This document shows positions 30,519-52,331 of a stretch of 52,331 bases of DNA, in pieces (position 1 is the first letter of the stretch; the number at the start of each line of letters is the position of its first letter). Below the pieces are notes generated by a model that was given only the letters and a program-made list of their open reading frames with translations, was not told the DNA's origin and made no database searches. The stretch comes from Enterospora canceri (Eukaryota > Microsporidia > Enterocytozoonidae): contig LWDP01000015.1 of the NCBI GenBank assembly GCA_002087915.1, forward strand, positions 1 to 52,331, written 5' to 3'. The position numbers and the translations under genes are program-made.

Positions 30519-33002
30519 ATGGCCAAGCGATCCGACGTATTCAAACACACCTTCAGGCTGAAGAAGGAGACGTCACCGGAGTTCGAGAGCGCAGTCGCGG
30601 GGCTGCGGGCAGAGGGCAGGGCGCAGCCAGGCCGCTTCAGACTCCACCTCCGCGACCACGTCTTCTGCATCGAGTTCATGTCGAAACAGTACAGGGAAAG
30701 CCCATTCCAGGTCGACGTCCTCTTCGCCCAGGCGGAGAAGGAGCACGAGATGGCCTTCTCCTTCGACTTCTCCACCTTCAGCAACACCTTCTACTTCGAT
30801 TTGAAGAAGACGAACAAATTCGACACAAACAAAGAATTAAGCATAACCATATGCATAAACAAGACTAATCCAACAAACTGCTTCTGTGGCCTGGTGAACC
30901 TGGGGGCGACCTGCTACATCAACTCGCTGCTTCAGACGATGCGCTACATGTTCCACTTCCAGAAGGAGCTCTTTGAGGCCGAAGACGGCTTCTACACCAC
31001 GAACCTGAAGCGCCTCTTCTACCAGATGTCCACGAACCCGTCTGGCGCCGAAAGGACGCTCTCGTCGCACTTCGTGCACAACCTGCCCTTTGTTGCCTCT
31101 GTTTCCGAGCACCAGGACGTCCACGAGTTCTCGAAGCTGCTCTTTGACCGCCTCGAGGCGGAGAACAAGAGCGTCATCAAAAACAACTTCGAAGGTGCCC
31201 ATAAAATCGTGTTTTCCTGCGACTGCGGCTGCACCGTTGAAAAAGAGGAGTCGTTTCAGGACATTTCGTTGCAGATGAATCGGAGCCAGAGCCTGGCTGA
31301 GTCGATGGCCGCCTTCTTCGAGGACGAGGCCATCGACGAGTTCCGCTGCGAGACGCACGGGGCGACGGCGGCGACGAAGTCGACGCGTGTCCACCGCGGC
31401 CCCCGCTACCTGCTCGTCCTGGTCGGCCGCTTCTCGTTCGACTGGGAGTCGAATTCGCCCCTGAAAAACAACGGCCACTTTTCGTATCCGCCTGAACTCG
31501 ACCTGGGCGCCTTCTGCGCCGATTCGGCGGCCTCTGAGCGCTACGCGCTGCTGAGCACCGTCGTGCACGCTGGCAGTGCCAGCCAGGGCCACTTCTACGC
31601 GTTCGTGCGAATTGGAGGCCGCTTCTACAAATTCAACGACGAGGCCGTGACGGAGGCGACTGAGGAGGAGGCCGTCGACTGGAACTTCGGTGGCGAAAAC
31701 GCCTTCACGGGCAGAACGAAGAAGTTCAGTGCCTACTGCCTCGTTTACGAAAAGAAGGCAGATTACGAAAATAAGGCAGAATCAGGCGGAATCTTCTTCC
31801 TCGAAAATGTCCCAGAGGCATTGACGAGGGAGCCAGTGACTGAGACAGTCGCAGTCCTCGACAGCCGCTTTCTCTCAGGCGCATTCTGCCCTGGCGCCTA
31901 CGCCACCGGCGCAGACTACGCGGCCAGGAGGCCACAGACGGTGGAGCTGTCGCAGTTCGACAGCCTCCCATCACTGATCAGAGACAAAGACGCCTACCAA
32001 ATGCAAAATGGTCGATTTGAGAAGGTGACCAAAAACATAGGCGGAACAGCCCCCCTTGTTCTGGTCGAAAAGGGCCCAGGCACCTTCGTCATTTTGAAGA
32101 CGTTTCAGGAGACGCCGTCTTGTTCGACCTGCCCAGAGAAGTTGAAGACGGTCGGAGCCACCCGAATCAGGCGACTCGAGGAAATCACAGGGGTGGAAGA
32201 GGGAATAGGCGCATTCAGGGAACAGGCTGACGGAGTCGAGAGAATCGAGAGATTCGATGACGTCAGAGAGGGCGACGTCCTCGTCGCCACCGCCTGCGAC
32301 GGCAGTCTCCTCGGCGACTACGTCGAATTCCTCAGAAAACGAAGGTGCCTCTTCGTCCAAGTCGGCGACCAGCAGCTGCCCCTCTTTGCAGAGAGGCAGC
32401 TTGGCCAGGCCGAGCTGGCCCAGGAGATCCAGCGCACCTTCCTCTCTCCCCTTCCTCTGCTTTCTGGTGGCGTAGCCACTGGCAACCTCCTTCGAGTCGA
32501 ATTCGACGAGCCAGTCAACGTCTTCTACGTTGGCTCCCTCTTCGGCCGCCTCAATGTCGGTGCAATTCCACACGTTCATCCTTTCGTCCTTCCTGCAGCT
32601 GCAACTCGGGCTGACTTCGTCAGACTCCTTCGTCGCAGCACCCACCCCTGTTTGAGAGGCGTCTACGGCCTCGATTCCATTTCGGTGATGCAGACGCACA
32701 GGCAGGTGCCAGCTGTGACCGTGGTGGAGAATGAGACCGATCTGATGCCAGTTGGTGGGCTGATTGTGGTCAGAGAGAGGCTGACTGATCCACTGGTGGT
32801 CTGTTTCATTGATTCATTCAGAAACATCGTTGATTACCCAATTGTGGTGGAGAGGGTGAAGACAGTTGCAGAATTCAGGAGGAAATACATGGTACTGGGA
32901 AGAATATTCAGGAAAGGAGGAGTTGGAGATGAGTGTGTAGAATGTGGGGATGATGAGATGGTTGATATGGGAGAAAAAGGATATTTATTAGTGGAGCAGT
33001 AG
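30519..33002 (+). CDS. UBP15: Ubiquitin-specific protease, USP7/Ubp15 type
   Basis: Deubiquitinase. Residues ~1-112 fit a TRAF/MATH-like N-terminal domain. The USP catalytic core follows: Cys box GLVNLGATCYINSLLQTM with nucleophile C132, EHQDVHEFSKLLFDRLE, His box HAGSASQGHFYAFVR with H358, and KFNDEAV with D374. A long C-terminal part (about 400-827) corresponds to the ubiquitin-like HUBL repeats of USP7/Ubp15. Start at 30519 follows acacccttccacATG, 36 nt after tRNA-Thr. Most of the gene is strikingly G+C-rich at third positions, turning A+T-rich after about 32700. Its 3' end is repeated in an assembly duplication. Confidence 0.9.
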   Translation: MAKRSDVFKHTFRLKKETSPEFESAVAGLRAEGRAQPGRFRLHLRDHVFCIEFMSKQYRESPFQVDVLFAQAEKEHEMAFSFDFSTFSNTFYFDLKKTNKFDTNKELSITICINKTNPTNCFCGLVNLGATCYINSLLQTMRYMFHFQKELFEAEDGFYTTNLKRLFYQMSTNPSGAERTLSSHFVHNLPFVASVSEHQDVHEFSKLLFDRLEAENKSVIKNNFEGAHKIVFSCDCGCTVEKEESFQDISLQMNRSQSLAESMAAFFEDEAIDEFRCETHGATAATKSTRVHRGPRYLLVLVGRFSFDWESNSPLKNNGHFSYPPELDLGAFCADSAASERYALLSTVVHAGSASQGHFYAFVRIGGRFYKFNDEAVTEATEEEAVDWNFGGENAFTGRTKKFSAYCLVYEKKADYENKAESGGIFFLENVPEALTREPVTETVAVLDSRFLSGAFCPGAYATGADYAARRPQTVELSQFDSLPSLIRDKDAYQMQNGRFEKVTKNIGGTAPLVLVEKGPGTFVILKTFQETPSCSTCPEKLKTVGATRIRRLEEITGVEEGIGAFREQADGVERIERFDDVREGDVLVATACDGSLLGDYVEFLRKRRCLFVQVGDQQLPLFAERQLGQAELAQEIQRTFLSPLPLLSGGVATGNLLRVEFDEPVNVFYVGSLFGRLNVGAIPHVHPFVLPAAATRADFVRLLRRSTHPCLRGVYGLDSISVMQTHRQVPAVTVVENETDLMPVGGLIVVRERLTDPLVVCFIDSFRNIVDYPIVVERVKTVAEFRRKYMVLGRIFRKGGVGDECVECGDDEMVDMGEKGYLLVEQ

Positions 33003-33348
33003 AGTGGTAGTAGTGGTAGGTAGTTAGTCTGATATGGTTAATTGCCCTNAGTTGGTGGGCTGATTGTGGTCAGAGAGAGGCTGACTGATCCACTGGTGGT
33101 CTGTTTCATTGATTCATTCAGAAACATCGTTGATTACCCAATTGTGGTGGAGAGGGTGAAGACAGTTGCAGAATTCAGGAGGAAATACATGGTACTGGGA
33201 AGAATATTCAGGAAAGGAGGAGTTGGAGATGAGTGTGTAGAATGTGGGGATGATGAGATGGTTGATATGGGAGAAAAAGGATATTTATTAGTGGAGCAGT
33301 AGAGTGGTAGTAGTGGTAGGTAGTTAGTCTGATATGGTTAATTGCCCT
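32750..33348. repeat. Assembly join: 299-bp direct duplication around one N
   Basis: Bases 32750-33048 recur as 33050-33348 with N at 33049. The block carries the last ~84 codons and stop of the deubiquitinase, so the second copy (33050-33302) is an untranslated shadow. The first copy stops at the end of one 18-bp unit (gatatggttaattgccct) that is followed in the second copy by a near-identical unit. Confidence 0.93.
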
Positions 33349-33366
33349 GATATAGTTAATTGCCCT
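33331..33366. repeat. 18-bp imperfect tandem repeat
   Basis: gatatggttaattgccct (33331-33348) is followed by gatatagttaattgccct (33349-33366), one mismatch. Both flanking N joins have their duplicated edges in these units, so this repeat probably split the assembly. Confidence 0.8.
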
Positions 33367-33953
33367 ATTATACTGATACACTCCACTGTAGCAACACCTC
33401 CATTTCATAGGCTGCCTTCTATTTGTTTTTCTTATTGTTTTCTACCTCCTCTTTCATGAATAGTAATGGATTCAGGAGAATGTGCGTGGATGAGATAAGG
33501 AGAGCAGACAACGTGGCTGTTCTGGAGGAGTGTACCGACTTCTACTCCTTCGTGATGGAGCAGGCGAGGGTGGCCACCAGAATATGCATCTGCTGTCTGG
33601 CACTGGGGTGCGACGAGAAGACGGAGGAATTGGCCAGAATTCTGGGGCGGCGGNGTTAATTGCCCTATTATACTGATACACTCCACTGTAGCAACACCTC
33701 CATTTCATAGGCTGCCTTCTATTTGTTTTTCTTATTGTTTTCTACCTCCTCTTTCATGAATAGTAATGGATTCAGGAGAATGTGCGTGGATGAGATAAGG
33801 AGAGCAGACAACGTGGCTGTTCTGGAGGAGTGTACCGACTTCTACTCCTTCGTGATGGAGCAGGCGAGGGTGGCCACCAGAATATGCATCTGCTGTCTGG
33901 CACTGGGGTGCGACGAGAAGACGGAGGAATTGGCCAGAATTCTGGGGCGGCGG
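33355..33953. repeat. Assembly join: 299-bp direct duplication around one N
   Basis: Bases 33355-33653 recur as 33655-33953 with N at 33654. The first copy contains the PGS1 start (33456) and its first 66 or so codons, then is cut by the N; the second copy continues into the complete gene. Confidence 0.93.
33456..33653 (+). pseudogene. Truncated duplicate of the PGS1 5' end (assembly artefact)
   Basis: Identical to the first 198 nt of PGS1 at 33756-33953 and cut by the N at 33654. It should not be counted as a separate gene. Confidence 0.85.
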
Positions 33954-34943
33954 CTCAGGGAGGGGGTGGAGCTCGTGATTCTGGCCGACAAGACGAGGAA
34001 CGAGGAGGACGAGGGGATTCTGGCGATGTTCTACAGGCACGGGCTGAGAGGGAGCATGAGACTGGTCGATGCTGAGACAAGCAGGTGGCTTCCAAATCTG
34101 GTGAATAACGCCCTGGGAGTCTATCACAGCAAACTGTACATCTTCGACGAGACCGTGTTGATGACAGGAGCAAACTTGTACGGGATTTACTACGAAAATA
34201 GGGCAGATCGATATTACGTCATAAAAAGTAGGGAATTGGCAGAATACTACTGCAAAATGGTAGTAGGAGAGGGGGTGTGGCACGATAGGGGTAGTTATGG
34301 TGGTCAGAGTGAGGGTAGTATGCGTGAAACAGGTGAAACTGCTATGGGAAAGTGGAACTCGATTAGTCTTGAAAACGTACAGTTTCAGGTGAGCACATTC
34401 AACCAGAAGAATGAGAAGGAGGTGCTGTTGAGGCTGTTTGAAACAGAGTACAGCGAAATGGCTGTTTCTACGGCCTACCTGAATATGCCAGGGGAGTATC
34501 TGGATGCATTGAGGACGAAGGAGTTCAAGCTGTTTGTACCAGCACCAGAGAACAACACTTTCAACACATTCGGGTTCTTTAATCAGGTGATTACGCAGGT
34601 GTATGCGTATACAAGTTATTATACAGCAAATAGACTACCAAAATGTGAGTTATACGAGTATACGAGACCAAATTACTCATTTCATAAGAAGGGGATATGG
34701 GTGTTCTATGAGAAATCAGCAATATCAGTGGTGGGGTCATCGAACTACAATTTACGAAGTAATCGATTGGATGAGGAGCAGAATTTCATGATGTTTACGG
34801 AAGATAAACGGATTATTGCGATGTGGAGGGAAGAAATAAGGAAATTGGAGGAGGATTGTAAGAAGAGAAGTGTAGAAGAGATGAGATACAGGTGCAAGTT
34901 ATGGGTTATGCTGATATTTATTCTGGCGAATTTTCTATTTTAG
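33756..34943 (+). CDS. PGS1: CDP-diacylglycerol:glycerol-3-phosphate phosphatidyltransferase
   Basis: Phospholipase D superfamily enzyme making phosphatidylglycerol phosphate, the precursor of phosphatidylglycerol and cardiolipin, normally at the mitochondrial inner membrane. The first HKD motif is complete (VYHSKLYIFDETVLMTGAN), and the second is the PGS1 form FHKKGIWVFYE followed by VVGSSNYNLRSNRLDEEQN. A C-terminal hydrophobic helix (LWVMLIFILANFLF) may anchor it. Between the motifs lies a Gly/Ser-rich insert (RGSYGGQSEGSMRETGE) encoded by a copy of a dispersed intergenic repeat word. Start at 33756 (cctcctctttcATG). 395 residues, somewhat short for the family (~500). In a microsporidian it would serve the mitosome or another membrane. 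Confidence 0.85.
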   Translation: MNSNGFRRMCVDEIRRADNVAVLEECTDFYSFVMEQARVATRICICCLALGCDEKTEELARILGRRLREGVELVILADKTRNEEDEGILAMFYRHGLRGSMRLVDAETSRWLPNLVNNALGVYHSKLYIFDETVLMTGANLYGIYYENRADRYYVIKSRELAEYYCKMVVGEGVWHDRGSYGGQSEGSMRETGETAMGKWNSISLENVQFQVSTFNQKNEKEVLLRLFETEYSEMAVSTAYLNMPGEYLDALRTKEFKLFVPAPENNTFNTFGFFNQVITQVYAYTSYYTANRLPKCELYEYTRPNYSFHKKGIWVFYEKSAISVVGSSNYNLRSNRLDEEQNFMMFTEDKRIIAMWREEIRKLEEDCKKRSVEEMRYRCKLWVMLIFILANFLF

Positions 34944-35700
34944 AAATATTTGGTTATTGATTTGGGGGAAGTAAGAAATAAATGGAATTATACTGGTTTG
35001 GTTGAATATAGATTATAAAAGTAATAGATGAAGAATGTTACTATATTTATTGTAATGCGAAACTTCTGGGTTTAAAACTAGAAACATGTTGGTTGCAAGG
35101 AATGATTATAAAAACAAATAATAATGTGTCAGTTTACCTAGCCACTATACTGTTATAAAAGTTCATTTTGATAAGATTATTCTTTAAGGAGTTAGTATGT
35201 TATATGTTTCGGCTTCTATTTTCAAAAGAGAATAAAATTTAAGTAAAAACAAAAAGTTAATAATTACAACAAATAATATACTCCATCAAAATATAATTTG
35301 AAGTAAAACACCAATTAAATTAATGGCCAAACGAGCGAAAAAGTCTAAACAATACAATAATGCTTTAAATATATTTATTCCTTCAATTTTCAAATGATTT
35401 TTAAAAATAAATATGTGTTTATCTTACTAAAAAAATTAATATTTATCCAATATAAATGTGTAGACTTTATAGTATATTAATATGTAAAATAAACGTATAT
35501 TAAATATATGAAATGAATAACACATTCCATATCTAAATAAATATTTACAACAGGAAATGCTTTTTATCGATTCAAAAATAATTTTACAAAAAGTATGGTA
35601 ATAATAGGACTTTTAAATGTTATTAATAACCTTGTTAAATACAAATTTGATATTGTATTTAAATTTACTAATTCTTTATCAAAATATATAAAAACTAGAA

Positions 35701-35754
35701 ATATACATTGTGTATAAAATTATTTAAATGCATTATTTTATACACAATGTATAT
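35701..35754. repeat. Perfect 20-bp inverted repeat (hairpin)
   Basis: Arms atatacattgtgtataaaat (35701-35720) and its exact reverse complement (35735-35754) are separated by 14 nt. Shortly after, another small hairpin lies at about 35783-35804 (cttatatag-ttag-ctatataag). A perfect 20-bp arm is unlikely by chance even in A+T-rich DNA. Confidence 0.9.
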
Positions 35755-36195
35755 ATTTAGTTACTTCAATATGGTAAAATGCTTATATAGTTAGCTATAT
35801 AAGTGTTTAAAACTTATAATGCTAAAAATTTAATTTTATAAGTCCATTTAATATTTGCACATTTCTCATACGCCTTTCATTTCTAAAGTATTGAAGAAAA
35901 TATTAAATATGCGAGCATTTGAATAACTTTGTTTAGTTTAATCCATCAATATTTTTGTGTGTATATTATATTCTGCAGATCCCAAACTGTTTTCTTATAC
36001 TTATTAATTAAAGTATGCATTAGACAGAAGCAATATAGCTAAAATTATTGCAGTTTATTAATAAACAAAAATCAATGACACATAAGATGTTGTTTTTAGG
36101 AGAAATATTCTGGTAATCTTTGCTGGCAATTCAATAATTATATTTCTTGTCATCGTCATCATCTTAATGTAATACTTTAGTCATATATACACACA

Positions 36196-36217
36196 TATAA
36201 TAAAAATTTTTATTATA
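36196..36217. repeat. Perfect 22-bp palindrome
   Basis: tataataaaaa followed directly by its reverse complement tttttattata, with no loop. All A/T, inside the gene-free block. Confidence 0.85.
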
Positions 36218-39200
36218 AACAGTATGAATAAATACCACATGACTTATAATAAAAATATAAGCAAATACTTATATGTAATTAAATTCATTCTAAACTTCAT
36301 TCTAACTAAATATAAAGAATGTAGTGATAATTCTGTATATCGTTACAAAGTATAGTAACAAACTTTAGTGAAAAAAATTAGCATGAAGTTTTCCGTCTTA
36401 TATTAATTCATATTTGAATTTTTATTTATAAAATATAAAAATTAGCACTTTAATGCTACTAATTATTTATGTTTACTGAAATAATTTTACACTTTATAAC
36501 AATATAATTAAAAATATTTTATACAGCAATATTTGCTGGCATTTCCATAGTCTTAATGACATAACAATAAAATTGGAAATAGAATAGTTTTTCGAACTTC
36601 TAACTTTTTATGAAATTAAAATATCAAGTTTTTTGTATGTTATCATTACGCTCTTAATACAAAATTTCACATGTTTAGTATATTTAGTATATTTAAATAC
36701 AAAAATTTATTGATGATACAAGCATGAATTAAATATATTCGCTTCATCTGTTTAGTTTTTAGTATTATAAATAACTAATTTATATATAATTGAATTTGTT
36801 ATAATATGATCATAAATTTTGGTTATATTAATGTTAAAGTATGGTTTTTCCGTTAGGATGTTTAAGACACAACTAAAACCACATTTGTATTATAACTAAC
36901 TTTAACATCTAACAAAACTGCATTTTTGTAAAAACGTTTAAACAATGAAAGCTTTGAAGCGTATGCTAATTTAAATACATTCGTTTAGGGTATATGCGTA
37001 TTAAACAAGATAATATTGTAAGCAAAGTTCATGCTTTTATATGTTCAAAAGGTAATTGATATGGACAAATTACATTACTTTATGATTAAATAGGAATACA
37101 CTATTTGTTTTCGTAAAACATGTGATTTTTTAATTTACATAATTATTATATTGCATATATCAAATTAGCATGTATATTATTTATTTTTTACTACATTCTC
37201 TACAATAACCATTATATAAGTTTAGAGCAATATAGAATTCACTTTAAGTATACCATCAGGGTTTTTAAGTATTGTATTTCTGAAGTATTTAGTAAAATTC
37301 AATAATAATGTCAAAATCATTCCGTTTTGTATAGATATAAAATTGAATTTTTTGCCTTTAAACCTTTGTTATCTCTATTTATTATACCATTTTGTGCTAA
37401 AAATGAAAATAACACAATACACATTGATGTATTACTTTGATATTTTAACCAATGTCAACTATTCAAATAACGATTCAAATATTTTTATCTGATACAGATA
37501 TATAGTGCCAATATAATATATTCAAATTGTTTAGTATGAAAATGTTCTTTCAGTAAACAATTTAATTACCTATATTTCTGAACTGGCATTTTTAACAACA
37601 GGTAGAATATTTATCTAAGTTTTGGTTCTAAAATTCTACAGAACTCCAAAGGAATCTTTTGTTTTTATCTCATTTATACAGAAATACAATAATTTAAACA
37701 GTATATGTAACCACTCTTCCTACTACAAAAAGTGTATTCAAAGCCCTATTTACATTAAAAATAGCTGTTATTATTTTAGTATCTATTAACTGTACACCTT
37801 CACATTCTGTCTTTCTTTATTTATGATGGAATATGATTCATTTTCTCAACCAGCCAAAGGTTTAATAAAATGTAAAGTTCGACACAGTTCCATTACTGTT
37901 CTAATATTGATTTCAATTATTTTTCATCAATAATGTATTCTTCTGTAGTAATCCCATCATTTTTAATTTTAAGCGTCTATTACATTGGTATAAAACATGT
38001 TCTTCCAGAGTCTATATATTAAAAAGTATAAATTACAATACAATAGACTTAAAATATTTTGTTAAACAGAAAAACGTTTTCATAAACTATTTGAAATAGC
38101 AACAATTGAATTCAAATGCCAATTCCATTTTAATAATTTCATGAAATTTAATGTATTTAGATATGGAAGAAGTGCATCTTAAATTAGATTATGTATTTTA
38201 CAATAAAAGTTTCTCTATTTCATACCTGTTAAAATTTTACAAATTAGACAATAGATTTTGTACAGATCTTATTCAAGTCAAATATCATAATTAAAAATCA
38301 TGATTTTCTTATTTTTTAAATGCTATTATCACTTTAATATGAACATGTGCAAATAGTATATAATCTTAGCAAAAAAACCTCTATAAAACACGTAATACAA
38401 AATTATTATTATAAATACATGTTTATTTACTATAAGTGTCGAAGAAAATATTTCAACAAATTTTGTCACGTCTAACCTGCTTTACTTGATAGTTTTTAAA
38501 AATAAAAAGTGTTATTAAATTTTTAAGTTTCTATAAATCATTAATTGCTCTTTTTGCATTTATATATTACTGTCTTTATTAACGTACAATCTTAGGAAAA
38601 ACATTGCTCATTGTAATGTATATAACTACATTTATTTTTTATTAGCTTTATATAATCTTTATTGGTTAATTAGTTCAAAATAACATTATATTAATAAAAA
38701 TCTAAAGTAGGTTATCCATTCCTAAAAAGCGGACAGTAAAAGTAGACTCATACCTCTATAAGTATGAGAAGACATAAACACTAATTTATATGATAGGTGA
38801 AAACTAAAGCTAGCTACATATATTTTTTGAGGCAATGCCATGGTTTTTTTTCTTGACTCAGCAAAAAGGATAATATCAGAGTAGAATAATTAAAGTCACC
38901 TAATCAATTTATTTTTCAATGCGTGAAATCTAAATTAAAGATAATATCATATACATTCGTTCATAATTATTACAATAAATAAGATAATAACAAAAAAATA
39001 ATCTATGCTTATTCTTGAAAGTCTAAATGTATTAATATCATTTTAAAACAAAAACCATATAGGTGCATAATAGTCTTGTTCGTCTATATATTTAGTCAAT
39101 AAAATTTTTAATGTAAACATGTTTTGTGTTAGAAGCTAAATATTTCAATTATTCTTAATAAATAGTAGTATCCCATACGTAAATGTAAATATAATTCCCC

Positions 39201-41341
39201 TAACATTTCTGACTTCGTAGATAAAAATATCCAAATATTATATACAATAATGTTTTTGGAAATTAATGTAGATTTTATTGTTTATAAAGTAAAAGTTGTG
39301 TGCTCATGTCATTTTTGTTTTGGAAACAATAAACGTGTAAACATTAGCCTATTAACACATATTGTTTTTAATGTTTGTATTGTAATTTGTAATAGTATAA
39401 GGCAATGTCAATAATTCACTTATATTTTCCAAAAATAATTCTTTATCACAGTATAACACAGATGTATATTAAACTCAATTGAGAATCTATTAAATTTCAC
39501 TTAAACACATTCCTTCATATCTTGCATGAATGGTAAAACATTTTTTTAATTTTAATCTAATAACATTTGTCTGAATCTCATGATTAGGCAATCTACTTTA
39601 TTAGAAACATATTATACAATAGTTAATGGGCGAATAATAACATATTTATTTATCAAATAAATACTAGAGTGTGTCACAGACTATTTTGCCTTTAAATATA
39701 TCTATCAAGTATAAGAATGATGTCGTTTTAACGATAAACAAACAAGAAATTTATTTTAAATATAGAAACTATGTTGTAAGTTTTGCAAATCCAATATAAA
39801 TTATACAACAAATACAAAAAAATAACCATATAATATTCGAACATTCAAGTTTTAACAAATTTAATTTATTATGAATTTTGAAGGAATTGCTTGTTGTTAT
39901 AAATATAAATATGCAATGAATAAATTGTAATCTATCAATTTTTAACTGCGAAGAAGGCTAAGCAAATCTTTGATACAATGAAATTTGTGGATGATTTTTG
40001 ATTCAGCAATATATGATATAAAAATTGCCATATAATGAAGTTTATAATTCTATTAAGTTGAAATATATATTGGTTTTTATAAGTGAAAAATAAAATATTC
40101 TATGATTATAATATATAAGAAAGATTATTTAATATGCTAAACAAAATCCTTGATTGTGATAGGTACTTCAGAGCCAAGATTGTTGTCAGCTATTTGAAAT
40201 AGTAAAATCGATTTTATCAGTGCATTTATACACTATTATGATCAACAACACAAAAACTACTCTATAAAATCATATTTCATGTGACAATATACACACCATT
40301 CTTCTTATTGTGTTTTAACATGTTATAATAAAGAATTAAACAAGGTAATGTATACAATAATTGATTAAGATCATTATAAAACGTGTATAATTTGGTTCTT
40401 TTTTGAATAAATTGACAATATTTAGAACTTAAATTCATTTGTTTGCATTAAAAACAAACCCATGTGAATATATTGATGTCTATAATATTCACCAATTTGT
40501 GATTTACCTAGTATATGAAGATACAAGATAATCCTTTTAACCATAATCATACTATTGTAAAATGTAAATTTTAGTTTGTTTTTACAATCAGAATCACTCT
40601 ACCCATTGCACGATAACGATGTTTTGAAAATCGTACTATGTAACATAAATAAGCTATGCGTTATATCAAATGTTATATATGTTTTTAAAACATGATTTTC
40701 TGTGTTAATATAATTCTTACAAAGAACTATTCAATTAATATATAATCAAATATATTACAATGTTGAATCCTATCATAATGTTATAACATTAAAAATAAAC
40801 TCTAACTTTCAGTTAATTAAAGATAAACATGTATTTATAAATTCTCGTACTTTCTTATAAATATGATAATATAAATCCTAAAATAATTTAATTGATTAAC
40901 TCAGGTGTATTTATAATTACAGTTTACGATGGCTTTTTATTTGAGTATTAAATTTATATCCTTGTGTTGAGGATAAGATAGTTTTAAAATAAACTCTTAG
41001 CTATAATCTTTGATTTCTTGAATTACAACACCTTGTTTTTTATAAAATGTTTATTTCTATTTCCATCTTTGATTATAATTTAAATAATTTACATTATTTT
41101 GTTATATACTGTTGGCATATAATATATTGTTGTGGTTGACTAAACATATCAATTTATAAAGTTTTCTTTACAAACCCAAATTTTTATTTAAAGTTATTCA
41201 GAAATGCATCTTTCCTAATTTATTCAAAATGCTTAAGAATAAATATGTTTAGAGCACAACTGCAATTAATATTATTGTGATTTAAAGCACTCCGGTATTC
41301 CATTGTACATTACATAATCTTTTTTTAATATAATACTGTAT

Positions 41342-41437
41342 TTAATCACAAGACATCATATTCGACATCCAACTGTTGTGTTCAGCTGCTGAGCCATCTT
41401 GCTCTTGTGCCTGAATACTCTTTTTAGTTGCAACCAT
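41342..41437 (-). CDS. 31-codon small ORF with promoter-like upstream region
   Basis: The only ORF in the A+T-rich block with a local start context like the annotated genes: on the minus strand a TATA-like element (ggtataaatag, 41470-41476) is followed by gagcccc (41449-41452) and then an ATG at 41437. The 31-residue product starts MVATKKSIQAQEQDGSAAEH and has no signal peptide or membrane segment. Local base composition is also higher in G+C than the surrounding block. It may be a true microprotein, the leader of a non-coding transcript heading into the block, or the decayed 5' end of a lost gene. Confidence 0.35.
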   Translation of the reverse strand: MVATKKSIQAQEQDGSAAEHNSWMSNMMSCD

Positions 41438-41876
41438 TTACTTGATAAGGGGCTCTGATAAACCCTTCTATTTATACCTGTTGTTTGTCTACAAACAATC
41501 AACATATCAACCACATATTGTTTTGATCCTTGACAGGTTGATGTGACAGAGTCCTGGTATCAGGCTCACACAACACCAACTATTTTAAATCTCATTTCAA
41601 CCATAATTACAAATGTTTACTTATCAAAATCTTAGATTATTTCTGTTATTATATTTTCAGAATATTGTTCTTTTAATAATCAAAATTGTTGAAGAGTAGA
41701 TTCTGGGAATCATACTCTTAGTCGTCTTACCACTATTAACTCAATTAGGTTTTTCACCCCTAACTTGAGTAACAACTAAATCTTTATCCCAACAAAAACA
41801 CCGTTGTTATTTCAATAATGTTTTCAAACTAAATATTTCAATAACTAAAACAACTAACCAATTCCATTTTCTTGTT
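41438..41876. other. Spacer between small ORF and AAA ATPase gene
   Basis: Holds the promoter-like elements of the small ORF, an 8-bp inverted repeat at 41481-41498 (ttgtttgt-ct-acaaacaa) and otherwise no gene that I can see. Confidence 0.5.
41449..41476 (-). promoter_or_regulatory. TATA-like box plus CCCC element facing the gene-free block
   Basis: On the minus strand, tataaat (41470-41476) lies about 18 nt before a CCCC (41449-41452), which lies 11 nt before an ATG. Similar TATA-then-CCCC spacing is seen before the gene at 8683. It directs transcription leftward into the A+T-rich block. Confidence 0.45.
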
Positions 41877-43043
41877 TTAGTCAAGGGTGTTCGAATCCTC
41901 TCGTTCTTTTTGCTTTAATGTAGCTAGCAGCTTGTTCTCACTAAAACCAATCAGTTTCCCGTCCCAATCATACTGTTTCACCAATGACATCGCTGACTCT
42001 ACAAAACCAATTGATTTGGTTATGATGGCATATTCCAATTGTTGTTTGTTTTTCAGAGTAATACCCAAACTTACAATTTTCTTGGTGATAAATACGTCAA
42101 TGTATTCATTAATTGTAATATTATCAAGTGGGTACGTTCTCGTTCTTGTCTTAAACTGCGTAGTAATATCTGCATCCACCATGTCTACTTCCTTTTCTGA
42201 CATGAAAACGGTCTTACGGCCGCTAGACATTGATTTAAGCACGCTTGAGAAACCATTGATCCTTGCATCCAGGATAATCTCAGGCTTCTGCAGATTCTTC
42301 CTGTTACATAATAGCCCCTGCGCATCATCAACAAGAAACAGCCTGAATTCAAATGACCTCCTTGGAACTGCCTTATTGAATATGTCATAATAGCTCTTTC
42401 CCTTAAGTGACTTGTCAGTCAGCAGATCAGATGGACTCATGATCAATAAGGTCACAAGCTGCTTCGTATCTTTTATGGCATTCTTGTCTACGTCATAAAG
42501 ATTTTTCATTACTGTGAATGGCTGCTTCTTTGACTTCTTGTACTTCGATTTCATCATTTTTAGCTGACAGTCCAGAATATACGCCAGTCTCTTAACGTAG
42601 AATGACTTTCCTGTTCCACATCGCCCGTGTATGAACAGAAAGTGGTCTTTTGGCGTGAAATTGTCGCCCTCAAAAATGTCTCTTCCAACAGCATTGCATA
42701 TTTTCAATACCCTATCCTTGATTTCATCCTCCTTTCCTACGAAATACGAATCCTCATACAGAGACAAATCAATACTCTTTGGTGGCATATCTGCTATAAC
42801 GGTCTCATCACTTTCTTCAATCATTTCTATGTTACCGTATCCTATCTCAACGACAATGTTGTAGAACATCAGTGGGAATACTATACAGAATACACCTATG
42901 AGGAATATGCACAGTTTCAATATTGATGCTGCTATCTTATTCATCTTTTCCTTTGTCGTGATCTGGTTGGTGACGTCTTTCTGTGGTCTCTGATTCCTCT
43001 GTTCATTTTCTGGATTTGCTTCTGATAAATTTTGTTCAGGCAT
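41877..43043 (-). CDS. Membrane-anchored AAA+ ATPase, possibly ATAD3-like
   Basis: A 388-residue protein with a hydrophilic N-terminus (1-36), one transmembrane segment (about 37-64, AASILKLCIFLIGVFCIVF), then an AAA+ domain: Walker A GRCGTGKS (140-147) and Walker B RLFLVDDAQ (234-242), where the usual catalytic Glu is Asp. The order (N-terminal region, single membrane segment, AAA+ module with ...RINGFSSVLKSMSSG after Walker B) recalls ATAD3-type mitochondrial ATPases, but also Orc1/Cdc6-like folds; I cannot separate these. Start at 43043 follows ttagccccttATG. It borders the gene-free block. Confidence 0.55.
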   Translation of the reverse strand: MPEQNLSEANPENEQRNQRPQKDVTNQITTKEKMNKIAASILKLCIFLIGVFCIVFPLMFYNIVVEIGYGNIEMIEESDETVIADMPPKSIDLSLYEDSYFVGKEDEIKDRVLKICNAVGRDIFEGDNFTPKDHFLFIHGRCGTGKSFYVKRLAYILDCQLKMMKSKYKKSKKQPFTVMKNLYDVDKNAIKDTKQLVTLLIMSPSDLLTDKSLKGKSYYDIFNKAVPRRSFEFRLFLVDDAQGLLCNRKNLQKPEIILDARINGFSSVLKSMSSGRKTVFMSEKEVDMVDADITTQFKTRTRTYPLDNITINEYIDVFITKKIVSLGITLKNKQQLEYAIITKSIGFVESAMSLVKQYDWDGKLIGFSENKLLATLKQKEREDSNTLD

Positions 43044-43197
43044 AAGGGGCTAATGAGAATGATTTTGTTGGCGCATTTGATGACTACTTAATTCACCCTA
43101 TACTTGAATAAGTTGAATGCATGACATCAACTATCTATATATCATGCGCATCGTAGTCAAATAGCATTGTTTACAATATTTATGTCATTTAACCCAT

Positions 43198-43956
43198 ATG
43201 AAGAAGAATACACTCTTTCTATTTGATGTAGATGGAACACTGAGCGAAAGCAGGGCGCAAGCACCGAGATTCATAATGGAGATGCTGAGAGAGCTGAAGA
43301 CACGAGTGAAAATTGCATTTGTGGGCGGGTCTGACCTGACGAAACAGAAGGAGCAGCTGGGGGAGGACGTGCTTGTCATTTTCGACTACGGCTTCCCTGA
43401 AAATGGCGTACAATTCTACGAGAACGGTCTCCTGGCTTCGAGTGAATCATTCATAGGGTGGCTTGGGGAAGAAAAGTTCAAGAAGCTGGTGAACAAGTTT
43501 CTGGCGGTGTTAGGAAGGACCGATTGTCCGAAAAAGAGGGGGACATTCATCGAGACCAGAAACTCGATGATCAACGTGTGTCCGATTGGAAGAAGCTGCA
43601 CCAAGAAGGAGCGAAAGGAGTTCAACGACTTTGATGGGATTGAGAAAGTGAGACAGAAAATTGTGGACGAAGTGGCGCCATTTGTGGACGAGATGGACGT
43701 GGCCTGTTCGATAGGCGGGCAGATTTCGATCGATGTCTTCCCGAAGGGGTGGGACAAGACGTACTGCCTGAAACATATCAAGGAGACTGAAATCTACTTT
43801 TTCGGTGACATGACTCACAAGGGTGGAAATGACTACGAGATCTTCATGCACCCCAAAGTCAAGGGACTCACCGTCTCTGGGCCAGTTGACACGCTCATGG
43901 GCGTAAACGATGTTTTAAAGAAAATTGGGGAGCCTGAAATACGCATAAACGAATAA
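43198..43956 (+). CDS. SEC53: Phosphomannomutase (Sec53/PMM)
   Basis: Interconverts mannose-6-phosphate and mannose-1-phosphate for GDP-mannose, feeding GPI anchors and O-mannosylation. HAD-type motif I is LFLFDVDGTL (D10, D12), followed by FVGGSDL.KQ and FDYGFPENGVQFY (family 'DY.F.ENG'), NVCPIGR, ISIDVFPKGWDKTYCL and FFGDMTHKGGNDYEIF (GD..GGNDYEI). 252 residues is the family length. Start at 43198 follows atttaacccatATG. Confidence 0.95.
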   Translation: MKKNTLFLFDVDGTLSESRAQAPRFIMEMLRELKTRVKIAFVGGSDLTKQKEQLGEDVLVIFDYGFPENGVQFYENGLLASSESFIGWLGEEKFKKLVNKFLAVLGRTDCPKKRGTFIETRNSMINVCPIGRSCTKKERKEFNDFDGIEKVRQKIVDEVAPFVDEMDVACSIGGQISIDVFPKGWDKTYCLKHIKETEIYFFGDMTHKGGNDYEIFMHPKVKGLTVSGPVDTLMGVNDVLKKIGEPEIRINE

Positions 43957-43976
43957 AACACTGTTAATTTTAACCC

Positions 43977-44576
43977 ATGCAAAGTTATTCAAGAAAGCCA
44001 ACGAATCTCTACCAGGACACGCTCAATCTGCGAGTGCTATTCACTGGCTCCCTTCAGGGCGACAGACCCCTGCTTTCTGAGCTTGGAATCGACCTCACAA
44101 GCATCCGGAGCGAGTCTACGATCGTCTTTGACGTCATCACAAAAAGATTCAAATATGAGGAGCACCAGTCGTGCGATTGCATTGGGCCTGTTGTCTTCAT
44201 CGCACTCTTTGCATTCGCACTAACTCTCAAGGCCAAGCTTCATTTTGGATACATCTATTTCCTGTGCATATGCAACGTAATTGGAATATTTGGATTAATC
44301 AACCTCTTATGCACAGAATACATTGGTCTCACTGCCTGCTGCAATGCACTTGGATACTCGTTTCTTCCGATTGTGCTCTTCTCTTGGAGCAACCTGTTTC
44401 TCTTCTTCGTCCCCCAAACCATTTCAATTGTTTTGGGCGTCATTGCAACAGTTTGGGCCACATTTGTATCGACCCAGCTTCTGAGCCACAAGTTGGGCAC
44501 GTACGATAAGACGCTTATAATCGGGTATCCAATCTTCCTAGGCTACTTTGGTTTCGTACTCATGGCAATATTCTAA
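43977..44576 (+). CDS. YIP1: Golgi/ER membrane protein Yip1 (YIPF5)
   Basis: Rab-interacting, multi-pass protein of ER-to-Golgi transport. The characteristic PLLSELGID precedes the membrane region, which begins with CDCIGPVVFIALFAFALTL (family 'DLAGPLVF...') and continues KLHFGYIYFLCICNVIGIF and NALGYSFLPIVLFSW (family 'LGYCLLP'). About five membrane segments, 199 residues. Start at 43977 follows ttttaacccATG, 20 nt after SEC53 on the same strand. Confidence 0.88.
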   Translation: MQSYSRKPTNLYQDTLNLRVLFTGSLQGDRPLLSELGIDLTSIRSESTIVFDVITKRFKYEEHQSCDCIGPVVFIALFAFALTLKAKLHFGYIYFLCICNVIGIFGLINLLCTEYIGLTACCNALGYSFLPIVLFSWSNLFLFFVPQTISIVLGVIATVWATFVSTQLLSHKLGTYDKTLIIGYPIFLGYFGFVLMAIF

Positions 44577-44601
44577 TAAAGTATCATATTCTAACAAATT
44601 A

Positions 44602-45048
44602 TCATATTCCATGGTCCCAAGGTGATCTCGTCCTTATCTCTGTGTTTGGAATTCGCTTTTCAATTCGTCTCATTGCCTCGTGCACGTGCGTCGGCATCAG
44701 TGGCCCAGTATGACCAGCCTCCTTCTGAACCACAATCGCCTCCATCACTAGCTCTCCAACAAACACCTTTGCAAGCCCACTCACCCCAATCACGATATTT
44801 GGATTCACTGCCTGCCCAATAATTTGGTTTATGTATTTCTTTACTGCCCCCTTCACAAAGTTGCTTCTTCTGAATGTCTCGTATCTCTGCTGATCATTCT
44901 GGCTCATGACTGCGACCTGTTTCTGGATGAATGCGTCTGTCTTCTCTCTGAAGACGCTGTCGTCAGTGGACAGCTGATTGTTTACGTCTGACGACTCAGA
45001 TGGCTCGTTCTCCTGCACGTTATTTTCATTCTTCTCATTTTTAGCCAT
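44602..45048 (-). CDS. TAF11: TFIID subunit TAF11
   Basis: Histone-fold subunit pairing with TAF13 in TFIID. The core reads QQRYETFRRSNFVKGAVKKY, then VNPNIVIGVSGLAKVFVGEL and PLMPTHVHEAMRRIE, matching the TAF11 histone fold (about 53-130). The N-terminus is a short acidic tail. 148 residues. Start at 45048 follows aacaaccccaATG. Confidence 0.92.
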   Translation of the reverse strand: MAKNEKNENNVQENEPSESSDVNNQLSTDDSVFREKTDAFIQKQVAVMSQNDQQRYETFRRSNFVKGAVKKYINQIIGQAVNPNIVIGVSGLAKVFVGELVMEAIVVQKEAGHTGPLMPTHVHEAMRRIEKRIPNTEIRTRSPWDHGI

Positions 45049-45158
45049 TGGGGTTGTTGAAACTGCCTATGTTTTAGATTGGCAATGGCCCCAAATACCC
45101 TCATGAATTAACTTATTTCACTATAAAATGTTCTAACAGGGGTAAAACAGTAAACGAC

Positions 45159-46334
45159 TCACTTTTTACTCAAATCCATGAATTCAGCAACCTGATCGTC
45201 ACTAACACGCTTTCGACTCTCCTGGAACGACCTAACAAACCGCTGTACTTCTTCTACGCATATTGTCTTGATGTCTGCAGTAGACATTTCTCCCTTACTG
45301 TATTTCCTACCAATCTCATGCAATCTATCCTCGTCTTCCATGAAGTATTTCAGATACTGATACGATACGTCTGAATCGAGACACGCGCCCTTCTCCCTTT
45401 GCTCGGCCAACGTGGCCTGGCCGCCTGAAAATGCGTGTTTTCTGATTTTCCTTTCAATTTCCTCAGGGGTGTCAGACAGAAAAATAGACGAGTTCTCATC
45501 AGAAGCACTCATTTTCCTGTTTGGGCCACGCAAATCAGGCAACAGGCTCACGTAGAGCGAAGTTGGCTTCAACTCGCCCAGAATGTTGGCCTTGTGTCTC
45601 GCCAGCCTGAAATACGGATCCTGATCAACTGCTGCTGGAATCAAAACAGGCGTGTTTTTCTCAAGAAATGGAAATGAGCTGGAATACGCCGGTGCTATTT
45701 CCTTGGCTGGAAATTGCGCCATTCCAATGCTCGAATTCATTCCAAAGCCAAAGACCTTGAATGCCTCGTTCAGGCTGATCAACTTGCTGATCTTGAGTGT
45801 ATTCTTCTCAAAAATACTGCTTGATTTGTAGTTGGAGAAGATGTACGTCAGCTTTGGATCAAATCCAAATGCAATGATGTCCCTTATGTTCAGCATTCCG
45901 TACTTAATGGAGTCTTCCAGAGTCAGGTTCTCCTTGAAGATGAATTTCTCATCATCAGTTATCTGAATCACAATGGGGCATTTGAACACGTCCTGGAAGT
46001 ACTTGCAAAGCAGGAACGGAACAGCGTGTCCAATGTGCATTGATTCGCTTGATGGCCCCCTTCCTGTGTACATGTAGAACTTCTTCTTCTCTTTAATCAG
46101 CTCAATGATTTTATCAAAGTCCCTGTGAGCAAAGCAGAGGAGCCTTCTCAGCAGTGGATGCGTATTCTCTCCCAGACACTTCTCCAAATCAGTGATGTGA
46201 TCACGCGTTAGTTTCTGGCAGCCGAATTGCTCGATGATGTGGTCGTAGTTGATCAGTTTTCCCTCTTCGGCGACTACTTCCCACGGTGTCACCACTGTCT
46301 TCGAATCATCTTGTGGTCTGTTGCTCTCAGTCAT
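45159..46334 (-). CDS. WRS1: Cytosolic tryptophanyl-tRNA synthetase
   Basis: Class Ic synthetase charging tRNA-Trp. Motifs are MHIGH (99-103) after YTGRGPSSES and KMSAS (274-278) in RGPNRKMSASDENSS. Also seen: QITDDEKF and the dimer-region IPAAVDQDPYFRLAR. 391 residues, similar to microsporidian/eukaryotic minimal forms without the WHEP extension. Start at 46334 follows gaaaccccATG. Confidence 0.95.
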   Translation of the reverse strand: MTESNRPQDDSKTVVTPWEVVAEEGKLINYDHIIEQFGCQKLTRDHITDLEKCLGENTHPLLRRLLCFAHRDFDKIIELIKEKKKFYMYTGRGPSSESMHIGHAVPFLLCKYFQDVFKCPIVIQITDDEKFIFKENLTLEDSIKYGMLNIRDIIAFGFDPKLTYIFSNYKSSSIFEKNTLKISKLISLNEAFKVFGFGMNSSIGMAQFPAKEIAPAYSSSFPFLEKNTPVLIPAAVDQDPYFRLARHKANILGELKPTSLYVSLLPDLRGPNRKMSASDENSSIFLSDTPEEIERKIRKHAFSGGQATLAEQREKGACLDSDVSYQYLKYFMEDEDRLHEIGRKYSKGEMSTADIKTICVEEVQRFVRSFQESRKRVSDDQVAEFMDLSKK

Positions 46335-46687
46335 GGGGTTTCAAAAAGTTTTGCTTTTATACTTTTAGTGATTGAATATACACTGATTTACATCACTACG
46401 CTATTATAGTATAGGTTGGTGGGCTAGAATATAGCATTGTTAGAGTATTTTATCGTATTTTTGGGTCTGGGCGATTTGATCACTTCTTAAATCAGGTGGG
46501 TTTTTTGATCAAACACAAACATCAAGAATAATGTGAAGGAAATAGTCTCTTGGTTACTATTAACGTGTTTAATACTCTTTACTGGTCATTTATAAACTGA
46601 TTAGGAAATAATCATTCTTGTCTGTTTTAGTTGACAGGAATCAGCTGAACTAAGTAAATTTTATCACGAAATATCTGACTCACATAA
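46335..46687. other. Intergenic, no gene seen (353 nt)
   Basis: A+T-rich spacer between the small minus-strand gene and the WRS1 start. No ORF, tRNA or notable repeat apparent. Confidence 0.55.
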
Positions 46688-46948
46688 TCATTTAATGTTG
46701 TAATAAATATCTTTATAGCACTGTTGGAGTGTCAAGTGCGTTATTTCTTCATTAACAACACCTTCCGCTTCATCCTGGTTGAATACAAATGATATTTTCA
46801 TTTTACCATTTACAACAGCTACAAACTCAGAAATGAACTCAATATGACCAATCTGTACATCAATTGGTGTATCCAAATAGTAATTGTTCTTCAGTAAAGA
46901 CTCCGCATCAGAACTCTTCTCAATTGCATATGCTGAAAAATCATGCAT
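46688..46948 (-). CDS. Small protein, unrecognised
   Basis: An 86-residue acidic protein (MHDFSAYAIEKSS...) with alternating strand-like segments (VQIGHIEFISEFVAVVNGKMK) and a C-terminal helix. No C-run precedes the ATG at 46948, which weakens the start and the call. It is divergent from the MCM8-like gene. Function unknown. Confidence 0.45.
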   Translation of the reverse strand: MHDFSAYAIEKSSDAESLLKNNYYLDTPIDVQIGHIEFISEFVAVVNGKMKISFVFNQDEAEGVVNEEITHLTLQQCYKDIYYNIK

Positions 46949-47064
46949 ATTTTTAAGGTTGTTTTGAATTTATAGTCAAAATACAACTGTTTATGCATAA
47001 GGAGATAAGAACATGGTTTCTGTATTATACAGAAGATGAACAGAGGGTATTTAACAAGGATTAG

Positions 47065-48876
47065 GATGCCATACACCTCATTCTGGATGAATTGACGGAA
47101 CCTGAGATCAATGAGAATGTGTTTATTTGTGATTACGATTTCTATGCAAAATACGGTAACTTGAGATCGATTAGCTGTGCTGTATCTAAGTATTTGTACA
47201 AGAAAACAGACAAATTGTCCAAGATCAAGACAAGAATCAACATCAGCTCTTTTACAGGTTACAAATTAACCACAATTGAACAATTTTCACCTGAAATTGT
47301 TGGAAAATTCATTAAAGTGACTGGAATTGTAACACAAACAAAATCCACACAAATAAAAAGATGCATATTTATGCATGAATGCACTGTATGCAATAAACTC
47401 AGGAGACTGAACACAACAAATAATTCACCACAGTGTTCATGTAAGAATAAACAGCACCTATTCCACTCAAACCACCCAGAAACCACGATTGAAGAATCAC
47501 AAACCATTCTGGTTCAGTTACTACCAGAATATCAAATGAACACAATTGAAATTGTTCTACAGAATGAATTATGCAATAGAGCAGAACCTGGTGAAGTATA
47601 CGACTTCGTTGGCCAGGTTGAAATTCAACTGAAAGGAGAGAGCTACCACACATTTCTTGTTGCAAACAACATAAGAAGACACATCAGAGAAAGAGTCGAA
47701 ATCAACAAAGAGGATTTCATTGCATTTTCAAAAAAGAAGAATTTGATGGGGATATTGATCAATAGCGTGTTTGAAAACATAGCAGGCAATGAACTGATAA
47801 AGGCAGGATTATTGATGGCCATGTTTGGTGGAACTGAAAAATACACTGGCTCAGTTGCAGTATCAGATAAAATCCACGTACTGATCATTGGTGGAGCAGG
47901 ATTAGGAAAGACTAAAACACTCAAAGATTCCGCTAAAGCAGTCACCAACTCAAAATACTTTACAGGTGAAAATGATCATCACTTTCTATCCAATAAAACA
48001 ACAACAAGAAAGAAGCAACATTCTACCAAATGTGGAATAATCAAATTGGCACAAAATGGACTATGTTGCATTGATAACCTGGAAGAAATCAGAGATCTGT
48101 ACAATTTGAGTGACATTCTTCTGAATAATACAACAGTTGTAGCCACAACCAGATCAAAAAACAACACCTTTGATTCCACCAAAACCATAAAAGAGAATAC
48201 GAATCTGCCTACCGATGTCCTTGATTGCTTCAATCTGACATTTGTGATCAAAGACACACTCACCACGAAAGAAAACTACGAAATCAGTAGCAAAATGCTA
48301 AAGAGAATCGAAGGCAGCTTCGTTACCAACTTCAACAGCAGTTGCACCACCGAAACAACAACTAAACTGGATAAGTTGTTCCAGAAGGCAAGAAACACTC
48401 ACAGTTTCTACAAGGAAACAGATGAATCAGTCAATATCAATTTCATCAGGGGATATATTGAATACGCCAAATCACATTGCAAACCAAGGTTGTCTAGAGA
48501 ATCACAAGAGCATCTCATTGCCTATGCCAGAGAGAACAAACTCACAACCAAATCACTTGAAACCCTGATCAATATCACTGAATCAAATGCAAAAATGCAC
48601 CTGATGAGCACCACTGACCTAAATTGCGCAATGTTTGCTACCAAAATATTCAAAGAAACCAGCCAGACAAAGACAGTCACCAAATCAAAGGTGAAAATTG
48701 AAGATGCTCTCAAAAACTACAGGGCTGAATTCGGAACCAGAATCAACAAGGCCGCCCTGATAAAAATCATTGAGGAAACCAACGATGATACCAATGTGCA
48801 TAAAATACTAGATAAGCTTAATTATAGGGGAATAATTATCAGAAGAAACAAGGAGGAGTTTAAGATTGATTTGTAG
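47065..48876 (+). CDS. MCM8: Degenerate MCM-family protein, MCM8-like; 5' end uncertain
   Basis: The fold is MCM: an N-terminal OB region with a zinc-finger-like C-TVC...CSC, then an AAA+ core. Residue numbers below count the TTG at 47092 as 1. Walker A is IIGGAGLGKTKT (264-275), and the GLGK form points to MCM8 rather than MCM2-7. Walker B is GLCCIDNLEEI (322-332), where Asn replaces the catalytic Glu. The sensor-1 region (TTVVATTRSKNN) has no Asn at the usual place, and the arginine-finger segment LPTDVLDCFNL (371-381) reads DCF where SRF is expected. ATP hydrolysis is probably lost. No in-frame ATG lies near the N-terminus; the frame is open from 47065 (DAIHLILDEL...) right after a TAG, see findings for a possible intron. 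Confidence 0.7.
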   Translation, partial: DAIHLILDELTEPEINENVFICDYDFYAKYGNLRSISCAVSKYLYKKTDKLSKIKTRINISSFTGYKLTTIEQFSPEIVGKFIKVTGIVTQTKSTQIKRCIFMHECTVCNKLRRLNTTNNSPQCSCKNKQHLFHSNHPETTIEESQTILVQLLPEYQMNTIEIVLQNELCNRAEPGEVYDFVGQVEIQLKGESYHTFLVANNIRRHIRERVEINKEDFIAFSKKKNLMGILINSVFENIAGNELIKAGLLMAMFGGTEKYTGSVAVSDKIHVLIIGGAGLGKTKTLKDSAKAVTNSKYFTGENDHHFLSNKTTTRKKQHSTKCGIIKLAQNGLCCIDNLEEIRDLYNLSDILLNNTTVVATTRSKNNTFDSTKTIKENTNLPTDVLDCFNLTFVIKDTLTTKENYEISSKMLKRIEGSFVTNFNSSCTTETTTKLDKLFQKARNTHSFYKETDESVNINFIRGYIEYAKSHCKPRLSRESQEHLIAYARENKLTTKSLETLINITESNAKMHLMSTTDLNCAMFATKIFKETSQTKTVTKSKVKIEDALKNYRAEFGTRINKAALIKIIEETNDDTNVHKILDKLNYRGIIIRRNKEEFKIDL

Positions 48877-48890
48877 GAAATAAACAACCC

Positions 48891-49181: not shown

Positions 49182-49232
49182 GCTGTAACAGTGTTTCAGA
49201 AACCAAAATTAATCCTGTATTCGTCATATGGC

Positions 49233-52211: not shown

Positions 52212-52232
52212 TTAGGTAGTTAGGGTGGTAGC
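52205..52232. repeat. Copy of the ggggtagttagggtggta word
   Basis: Directly at the ROM2 stop: ggggtagttaggtagttagggtggtagc, with an internal gtagttag duplication. Same word family as 24059-24082 and 34287-34307. Confidence 0.7.
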
Positions 52233-52276
52233 AATCATTTACTACTATAATAATAGTAGGGTAGATTTACTACTAC

Positions 52277-52331
52277 AATAATATTAGTGTCAATCATTTA
52301 CTATAATAATATTAGTGTCAATCATTTACTA
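52277..52331. repeat. 28-bp tandem repeat running off the right edge
   Basis: Unit aataatattagtgtcaatca plus tttactat occurs at 52277-52304 and again at 52305-52331 (cut by the window end). A related, shorter stretch (agcaatcatttactactataataatag) precedes it. Copy number is unknown. Confidence 0.9.

Follow-up and report, generated by a model that had tools for sequence, protein, structure and literature searches.

A candidate short regional AT-rich centromere in the reduced genome of the microsporidian Enterospora canceri

The centromeres of Candida auris and its relatives are small, regional and GC-poor: they lie in kilobase-sized, AT-rich stretches without open reading frames (ORFs) or tandem repeats, and the ORF-free regions measure 2.1-2.6 kb in five rows of the published Table 1 (PMC8262905). 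Here we describe a gene-free AT-rich block in the microsporidian Enterospora canceri (family Enterocytozoonidae), found in a stretch of 52,331 nucleotides of contig LWDP01000015.1 (assembly GCA_002087915.1; hereafter the window). Contigs of the analysed assembly are numbered with a C; the window lies on C9, and the block under study is called the C9 block. We consider it likely that this block is a short regional AT-rich centromere, as in Candida auris or Malassezia. The E. canceri blocks share the features of the C. auris group listed above, but they are about 2.5 times longer, and seven of the ten share diverged elements, whereas the C. auris centromeres are described as free of motifs and repeats. 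CENP-A binding has been demonstrated in the C. auris group (PMC8262905) and is predicted for the E. canceri blocks.

In Malassezia, each centromere coincides with a GC trough, and the core averages 78% AT, compared with 76-78% over the E. canceri blocks. An AT-rich core shorter than 1 kb sits there in a kinetochore-bound region of 3-5 kb, whereas about 6 kb is AT-rich in E. canceri, and a 12-bp motif is enriched there, whereas no short motif stands out in the E. canceri blocks (PMC7025860). Among microsporidia, centromere-like loci have been proposed on all chromosomes of Microsporidia sp. MB, from the wider Enterocytozoonida, CENP-A, represented in E. canceri by candidate genes, is encoded in both organisms, and both have TTAG telomeres; the loci of that species are described as retroelement-rich, CpG-methylated and raised in GC, unlike the AT-rich E. 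canceri blocks, inside which no transposon gene was seen (PMC13174016). One sentence of the same paper likens local GC drops in another microsporidian, Antonospora locustae, to centromeres, much as in the blocks described here. Encephalitozoon also has more than one H3 gene, one of them proposed as CENP-A, and epigenetic centromeres have been proposed for it; unlike in E. canceri, its chromosome cores are reported as gene-dense and GC-rich with little deviation, and its centromeres have been proposed to lie near the telomeres (PMC10158259). A survey of nine microsporidian genomes could not recognize a centromere from GC content or from repeats, and discussed holocentricity and epigenetic definition as possibilities (PMC12449221), and a 2026 paper stated that centromere positions in any microsporidian need more data for confirmation (PMC13174016). 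In the cited portions of this literature we found no experimentally located microsporidian centromere and no description of the E. canceri blocks; the cited papers do not include the original E. canceri genome and A. locustae papers. E. canceri is listed among intranuclear parasites (PMC12134460).

A recurrent gene-free AT-rich block

The analysed assembly comprises 2.24 Mb in 75 contigs, and every count of blocks or copies given below is a lower bound. Table 1 of PMC12134460 lists the published E. canceri assembly at 3.10 Mb, 537 contigs and 40.15% GC, and four relatives at 22.4-26.3% GC genome-wide. We take the analysed sequence to come from a single organism because it contains one NDC80 match, one histone read as H4 and, for MCM, six strong matches together with a single divergent gene. 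The closest named protein to a phosphomannomutase in the window was from Nucleospora cyclopteri (65%).

The first-pass annotation had marked a gene-free gap in the window (Table 1), and its limits were found to be exact: the gene on the left (plus strand) stops at 34943 and the ORF on the right (minus strand) at 41877. The gap has 23.0% GC, compared with 44.3% in the remaining window. The abrupt change in composition that had been described was borne out as a sharp fall in GC, but the AT-rich core proper stops near 41346, short of the gap's end at 41876. The first 257 bp of the gap have a GC of 0.265, positions 35201-41346 one of 0.220 and the last 530 bp one of 0.321, and the genes flanking the block have GC of 0.463 and 0.387. 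The edges are without Ns, as had also been noted. The five Ns of the window lie at 951, 1695, 2403, 33049 and 33654, and the N-free stretch 33655-52331 takes in the block together with both flanking genes.

The gap was correctly described as free of ORFs of 60 codons and of RNA genes. The longest ATG-initiated ORF within it has 54 codons, and no Rfam family matched at the gathering score, with a single non-credible match at E<0.5. The longest stop-to-stop run in 34929-41346 was 88 codons, while mononucleotide shuffles gave a mean of 77 and a 5-95% range of 60-104; shuffled DNA is thus just as open as the block. No tandem repeats were detected in the gap. The block also differs from ordinary non-coding DNA, because 99 other gaps between ORFs of at least 100 amino acids (window plus 12 control stretches) have about 35% GC and are far shorter, with a median of 133 bp and a maximum of 2869 bp. 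Intergenic stretches of 1-2.9 kb elsewhere have 30-40% GC. As a side observation, GC at third codon positions ranged from 0.36 to 0.57 across the window and the 12 control stretches, a wide spread that would suit a genome divided into regions of low and high GC.

Blocks of this kind were located with whole-assembly scans for A/T runs, which may overlook blocks poor in such runs, followed by delimitation of the maximal-scoring AT segment and inspection. We found at least ten blocks on ten contigs, six of them interior and four cut by a contig end (Table 1). The six interior AT segments span 5332-6842 bp, with a mean of 6257 bp and a coefficient of variation of 8%. GC is 22-24% in all ten blocks, a marked minimum against the roughly 35% of other intergenic DNA, and each extends for a few kb without genes although the genome is gene-dense; both features are typical of short regional AT-rich fungal centromeres. 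The pattern of G or C followed by 20 A/T bases was concentrated in the blocks, with 98 of 140 listed places inside them (2.6% of the genome) and at least six in every block; this pattern partly served to find the blocks, so the figure describes their concentration and is not an independent test. Outside the blocks, at most two distinct A/T runs occurred in any 7-kb stretch. One such pair, 1.2 kb apart on C1, was inspected and is not a block, and neither are C12 and C37, which the first A/T-run search had raised. In none of 13 comparison stretches did the best AT segment exceed 629 bp; among them, C72 holds only a 319-bp stub near its contig end that is AT-rich like the blocks.

There was never more than one block on any of the ten contigs. 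TTAG repeats, the four-base telomere type given for Enterocytozoonida in the cited text of PMC13174016, were seen at four contig ends, on C5, C7, C37 and C73. The longest ATG ORFs were ordinary relative to shuffles in all but one (C26) of the seven blocks tested. Rfam searches of the loci with seven of the ten blocks gave no match at the gathering score inside any block, Pfam searches of eight of the 14 longest listed stop-free stretches in the blocks gave nothing over cut-off and no transposon protein relic, and phage records gave no match.

Shared elements and centromere proteins

Two diverged, non-coding elements, denoted A and B, recur among the blocks, and seven of the ten carry at least one of them. 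In such AT-rich DNA blastn was unreliable: three shuffled sets gave 50-75 rows each with a best E value of 8e-9, and permissive settings returned kilobase-long matches between blocks without meaning. We therefore judged the kinship between blocks by nhmmer against shuffled and reversed controls. At E<1e-3 there were 21 between-block matches, which are not mutually independent: 17 of element A, three of element B and one between the block edges of C26 and C30. None was found in any of three shuffled sets, and none against reversed blocks at E<1e-2.

Element A occurs in four of the ten blocks, C9, C8, C57 and C36, the last with two inverted copies. A profile built from C8, C9 and C36 recovered copies on which it had not been trained, in C57 (1.3e-13) and as the second copy of C36 (8.5e-7). 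Element A gave no credible match in reversed blocks. Pair identity was 55-62%, compared with 44% for shuffled cores. The element does not look coding, because only 29 of 163 gaps in it are multiples of three. Element B occurs in five blocks, C26, C36, C52, C55 (twice) and C9; its profile, built from C26, C36 and C55, found C9 (E 7e-8), C52 (1.4e-6) and a weak second copy in C55 (0.005). A genome BLAST with the C36 core matched C36 and C8 only. This is no proof that element A is confined to blocks, because the copies in C9 and C57 were missed.

Genes for CENP-A, in the form of two candidate H3 variants, and for the outer kinetochore (NDC80, one match over cut-off) appear to be encoded. Three H3-like genes were found (Table 1), three forms within one of the smallest eukaryotic genomes. 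Both divergent variants, on C7 and C26, agree at 100% identity with E. canceri proteins that have been deposited under the name CENPA. Among solved relatives of the C26 variant a Cse4 ranks first (E 2.7e-14), with H3.3C close behind (6.6e-14), so that either divergent variant may be the true CENP-A. On C7 the strongly diverged H3 is paired with an H4 (C7:5068-5965). The C26 gene begins 4 bp past the AT segment of the block on that contig, possibly by chance.

The SPC25-like gene reported near the gap was not confirmed: none of the 20 window ORFs scanned, among 53 of at least 100 amino acids, matched SPC25. The closest find was a small gene with a MAD1 C-terminal domain, which matches the C-terminal part of the MAD family (149 amino acids, E 6.9e-12) and lies some 6 kb away from the block.

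Centromere function and alternative explanations

The earlier suggestion of a centromere gained support from the recurrence on ten contigs, never two on one, from uniform size and composition, and from the encoded CENP-A candidates and NDC80. These features were observed directly in the sequence, as were the anatomy of the block, its shared elements and its flanking ORFs; that CENP-A binds the blocks, that they lie one to a chromosome, that they lack transcription and that they serve the kinetochore is inferred. About 6 kb of AT-rich gene-free DNA would be occupied by CENP-A nucleosomes, and the kinetochore (the NDC80 complex and others) assembled on them would join the chromosome to the spindle, at ten or more such sites, plausibly one per chromosome. 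Centromere identity would probably be epigenetic and compositional and not set by a short motif, since A+T-rich DNA alone can serve as a centromere in fission yeast, as stated in the cited part of PMC8754631. The low GC would probably be kept by selection for A+T, by the absence of recombination and hence of GC-biased repair, or by both; alternatively, it may be a retained family composition. Elements A and B may be traces of exchange between centromeres. A possible but doubtful version gives sequence a larger part: the blocks would be AT-rich centromeres visible from sequence, in a phylum believed to have no such marks, and partly defined by it, with elements A and B exchanged between centromeres and helping to seed CENP-A, and their family-type GC of 22-24% would have been kept since the non-recombining blocks escaped the rise to 40% in the remaining E. 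canceri genome.

Several observations weigh against a regional centromere at these sites. The contigs carrying blocks span 10-133 kb, so that one block per contig is weak evidence for one per chromosome, and the analysed assembly is smaller than the published one listed in PMC12134460. The C26 block holds a 118-amino-acid ATG ORF, where its shuffles reach 75 at the 95% level; the stretch had no Pfam match. No motif was present in all ten blocks. Neither element was found in C27, C30 or C69 (C27 and C69 being truncated by contig ends), and one fragment of element A, scoring 20 bits, was located away from the blocks, at C26:2129-2322. A CENP-C-like domain on C32 scored below cut-off (24.8 bits against 29), and this match says little, because the family also gave below-cut-off matches in eight of 14 prokaryotic control genomes. 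Finally, the cited survey of nine other microsporidia saw no GC-defined centromere (PMC12449221).

If the blocks were instead gene deserts unrelated to centromeres, in which genes decayed during genome reduction and the sequence drifted to a mutational equilibrium near 22% GC, the genome-wide 22-26% GC of four relatives listed in PMC12134460 would fit, as this may be the mutation equilibrium, and the paralogous genes beside several blocks would reflect local duplication and turnover. Decay predicts varied lengths, yet the six interior segments vary by only 8%; it also predicts gene relics, yet the eight stop-free stretches searched in Pfam yielded none over cut-off, and the other intergenic stretches of 1-2.9 kb have kept their higher GC. 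We consider this explanation unlikely. That the blocks have collected the decayed copies of some lineage-specific mobile element, with A and B as its remnants, seems very unlikely to us. A and B do recur, A as an inverted pair in C36, and a DDE transposase gene flanks the C36 block; moreover, retroelement-rich centromeres have been proposed in Microsporidia sp. MB (cited text of PMC13174016), so that this explanation may complement a centromere function. However, four of the ten blocks have about 1.2 kb covered by A and five have about 0.12 kb covered by B, most gaps in A have lengths that are not divisible by three, no transposon protein relic turned up in the stop-free stretches tested, and CpG depletion is no stronger than elsewhere.

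Replication origins are often AT-rich, and a eukaryotic genome of 2-3 Mb is expected to have more and shorter origins than about ten. Another chromosome-scale element, such as a dedicated replication origin or a long non-coding RNA locus, would agree with the AT-richness of the blocks and with their apparent lack of translation, but about ten long blocks would be too few for the origins of such a genome, there is no credible Rfam match in the C9 block, and the flanking genes have no orientation in common among blocks; we regard it as highly improbable. It is scarcely credible that the block is host (crab) or other foreign DNA joined by misassembly, the competing explanation raised by the first-pass annotation. 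The abrupt block edges would suit a chimeric contig, and the assembly does contain joins in which a single N separates duplicated ends about 250-300 bp long. Against this, the sixteen visible edges of the ten blocks adjoin ORFs of parasite contigs, six of them with a Pfam match over cut-off; for 12 edges an ORF of at least 80 amino acids is no more than 165 bp away or slightly overlaps the block, and for the other four the distance is 0.4-1.6 kb. The C9 stretch is N-free from 33655 on, the right edge of the C52 block is repeated in C20 at 97.2%, and the blocks are related to one another through diverged elements that are absent from the shuffled and reversed controls.

Further possible hallmarks of the blocks and other centromere types were also tried and rejected. 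Palindromes exceeded all 20 shuffles in seven of the ten blocks, but also exceeded the shuffles in six of 12 control stretches (first 6400 bases of each, 10 shuffles each). For a short centromere motif, counts of the top 8- and 10-mers were near those of Markov simulations, and one 12-mer was marginal (8 blocks against 6). A point centromere like that of budding yeast, with its centromere DNA elements, was dismissed because no short element is in every block. CpG observed/expected was 0.73 in the blocks, compared with 0.65 in flanks and 0.62 in controls, which gives no CpG decay as a trace of methylation. Repeat-induced point mutation raises TpA and depletes CpA and TpG. An AT-rich centromere made by this process (Neurospora type) was rejected because CA is in excess, not depleted, in the pooled blocks (TA 0.94, AT 0.99, CA 1.23, AC 1.06). 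A transposon-rich regional centromere of the Microsporidia sp. MB type was set aside, with no retroelement gene in eight of the 14 longest listed stop-free stretches. Perfect tandem copies of 251-302 bp in C26, C27 and C57 flank a single N and were taken as assembly joins, not centromere repeats.

Neighbouring genes and implications

The four block edges farther from an ORF are C55 left (0.44 kb), C9 right (0.53 kb), C69 right (0.77 kb) and C30 left (about 1.6 kb). The six flanking genes over the Pfam cut-off are PLD-like (C9), peptidase C13 (C8), histone (C26), TFIIS zinc ribbon (C27), helicase C-terminal domain (C57) and DDE transposase (C36). Five further flanking proteins scanned (C8 right, C9 right, C30 right, C52 right and C69) had no match over cut-off; the neighbours at C26 left, C30 left and both sides of C55 were at most compared with one another. 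Some flanking genes are paralogous: a 366-amino-acid gene at C8, C52 and C30 (90-93%), a 281-amino-acid gene at C26 and C30, and a 459-amino-acid gene at C69 and C30. Such neighbours are not confined to blocks, because the 281-amino-acid family has a further copy on C6, where no block was seen. The copy of the right edge of the C52 block in C20 extends over 1.8 kb, which supports that junction.

Other features of the window and of related contigs were noted. Two single-N joins at 33049 and 33654, within 32800-33953, each separate two perfect direct copies (at least 249 bp and at least 299 bp), as in blocks C26, C27 and C57, and are apparently unmerged contig ends from scaffolding; the PLD-like gene has its start duplicated in this way. 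A dispersed repeat with 95-100% identity was found at C20:1-269, in the C72 stretch at 1849-2117 and in the C6 stretch at 120-326, and starts two of those three contigs. The window also encodes a divergent MCM-type ATPase, besides the six strong MCM matches elsewhere.

Table 1 Features of the window (positions without contig name) and of other contigs.
Feature	Position	Strand	Description
Gene-free gap, candidate centromere	34944-41876		6933 bp, 23.0% GC
Maximal-scoring AT-rich segment (interior block C9)	34929-41346		6418 bp, 22.2% GC; first 15 bp inside left gene
Inverted repeat	35693-35762		31-nt arms, 90% complementary, 8-nt loop; repeat type not block-specific
Element B	38739-38868	+	about 120 bp
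Element A	39494-40669	-	about 1.2 kb, non-coding; nhmmer
Left flanking gene, PLD-like	33756-34943	+	395 amino acids; Pfam PLDc_2 E 1.9e-12, over cut-off
Right flanking ORF, AAA-like	41877-43043	-	388 amino acids; weak Pfam only, AAA_22 E 0.0034, below cut-off; nothing at E 0.001
MAD1 C-terminal domain	28399-28848	+	149 amino acids
Divergent MCM-type ATPase	47371-48876	+	501 amino acids; MCM, lid and OB domains
Interior block	C8:15725-22178		AT segment 6454 bp
Interior block	C26:3290-9756		AT segment 6467 bp
Interior block	C30:3638-9665		AT segment 6028 bp
Interior block	C52:19401-24732		AT segment 5332 bp
Interior block	C55:5484-12325		AT segment 6842 bp
Block cut by contig end	C27:1-4782
Block cut by contig end	C36:73094-79363
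Block cut by contig end	C57:56787-62454
Block cut by contig end	C69:10-3722
H3-like gene	C1:20193-20642		tail read as canonical
H3-like gene	C7:5068-5502		divergent
H3-like gene	C26:9761-10258		divergent

The blocks would probably represent a known kind of centromere, newly placed in a phylum for which the cited portions of the literature report no experimentally located one. The coordinates of the ten blocks make centromere location in a microsporidian directly testable by CUT&RUN or Hi-C. If the centromere reading is true, a genome that ranks among the most reduced of all eukaryotes has still kept compact AT-rich regional centromeres.

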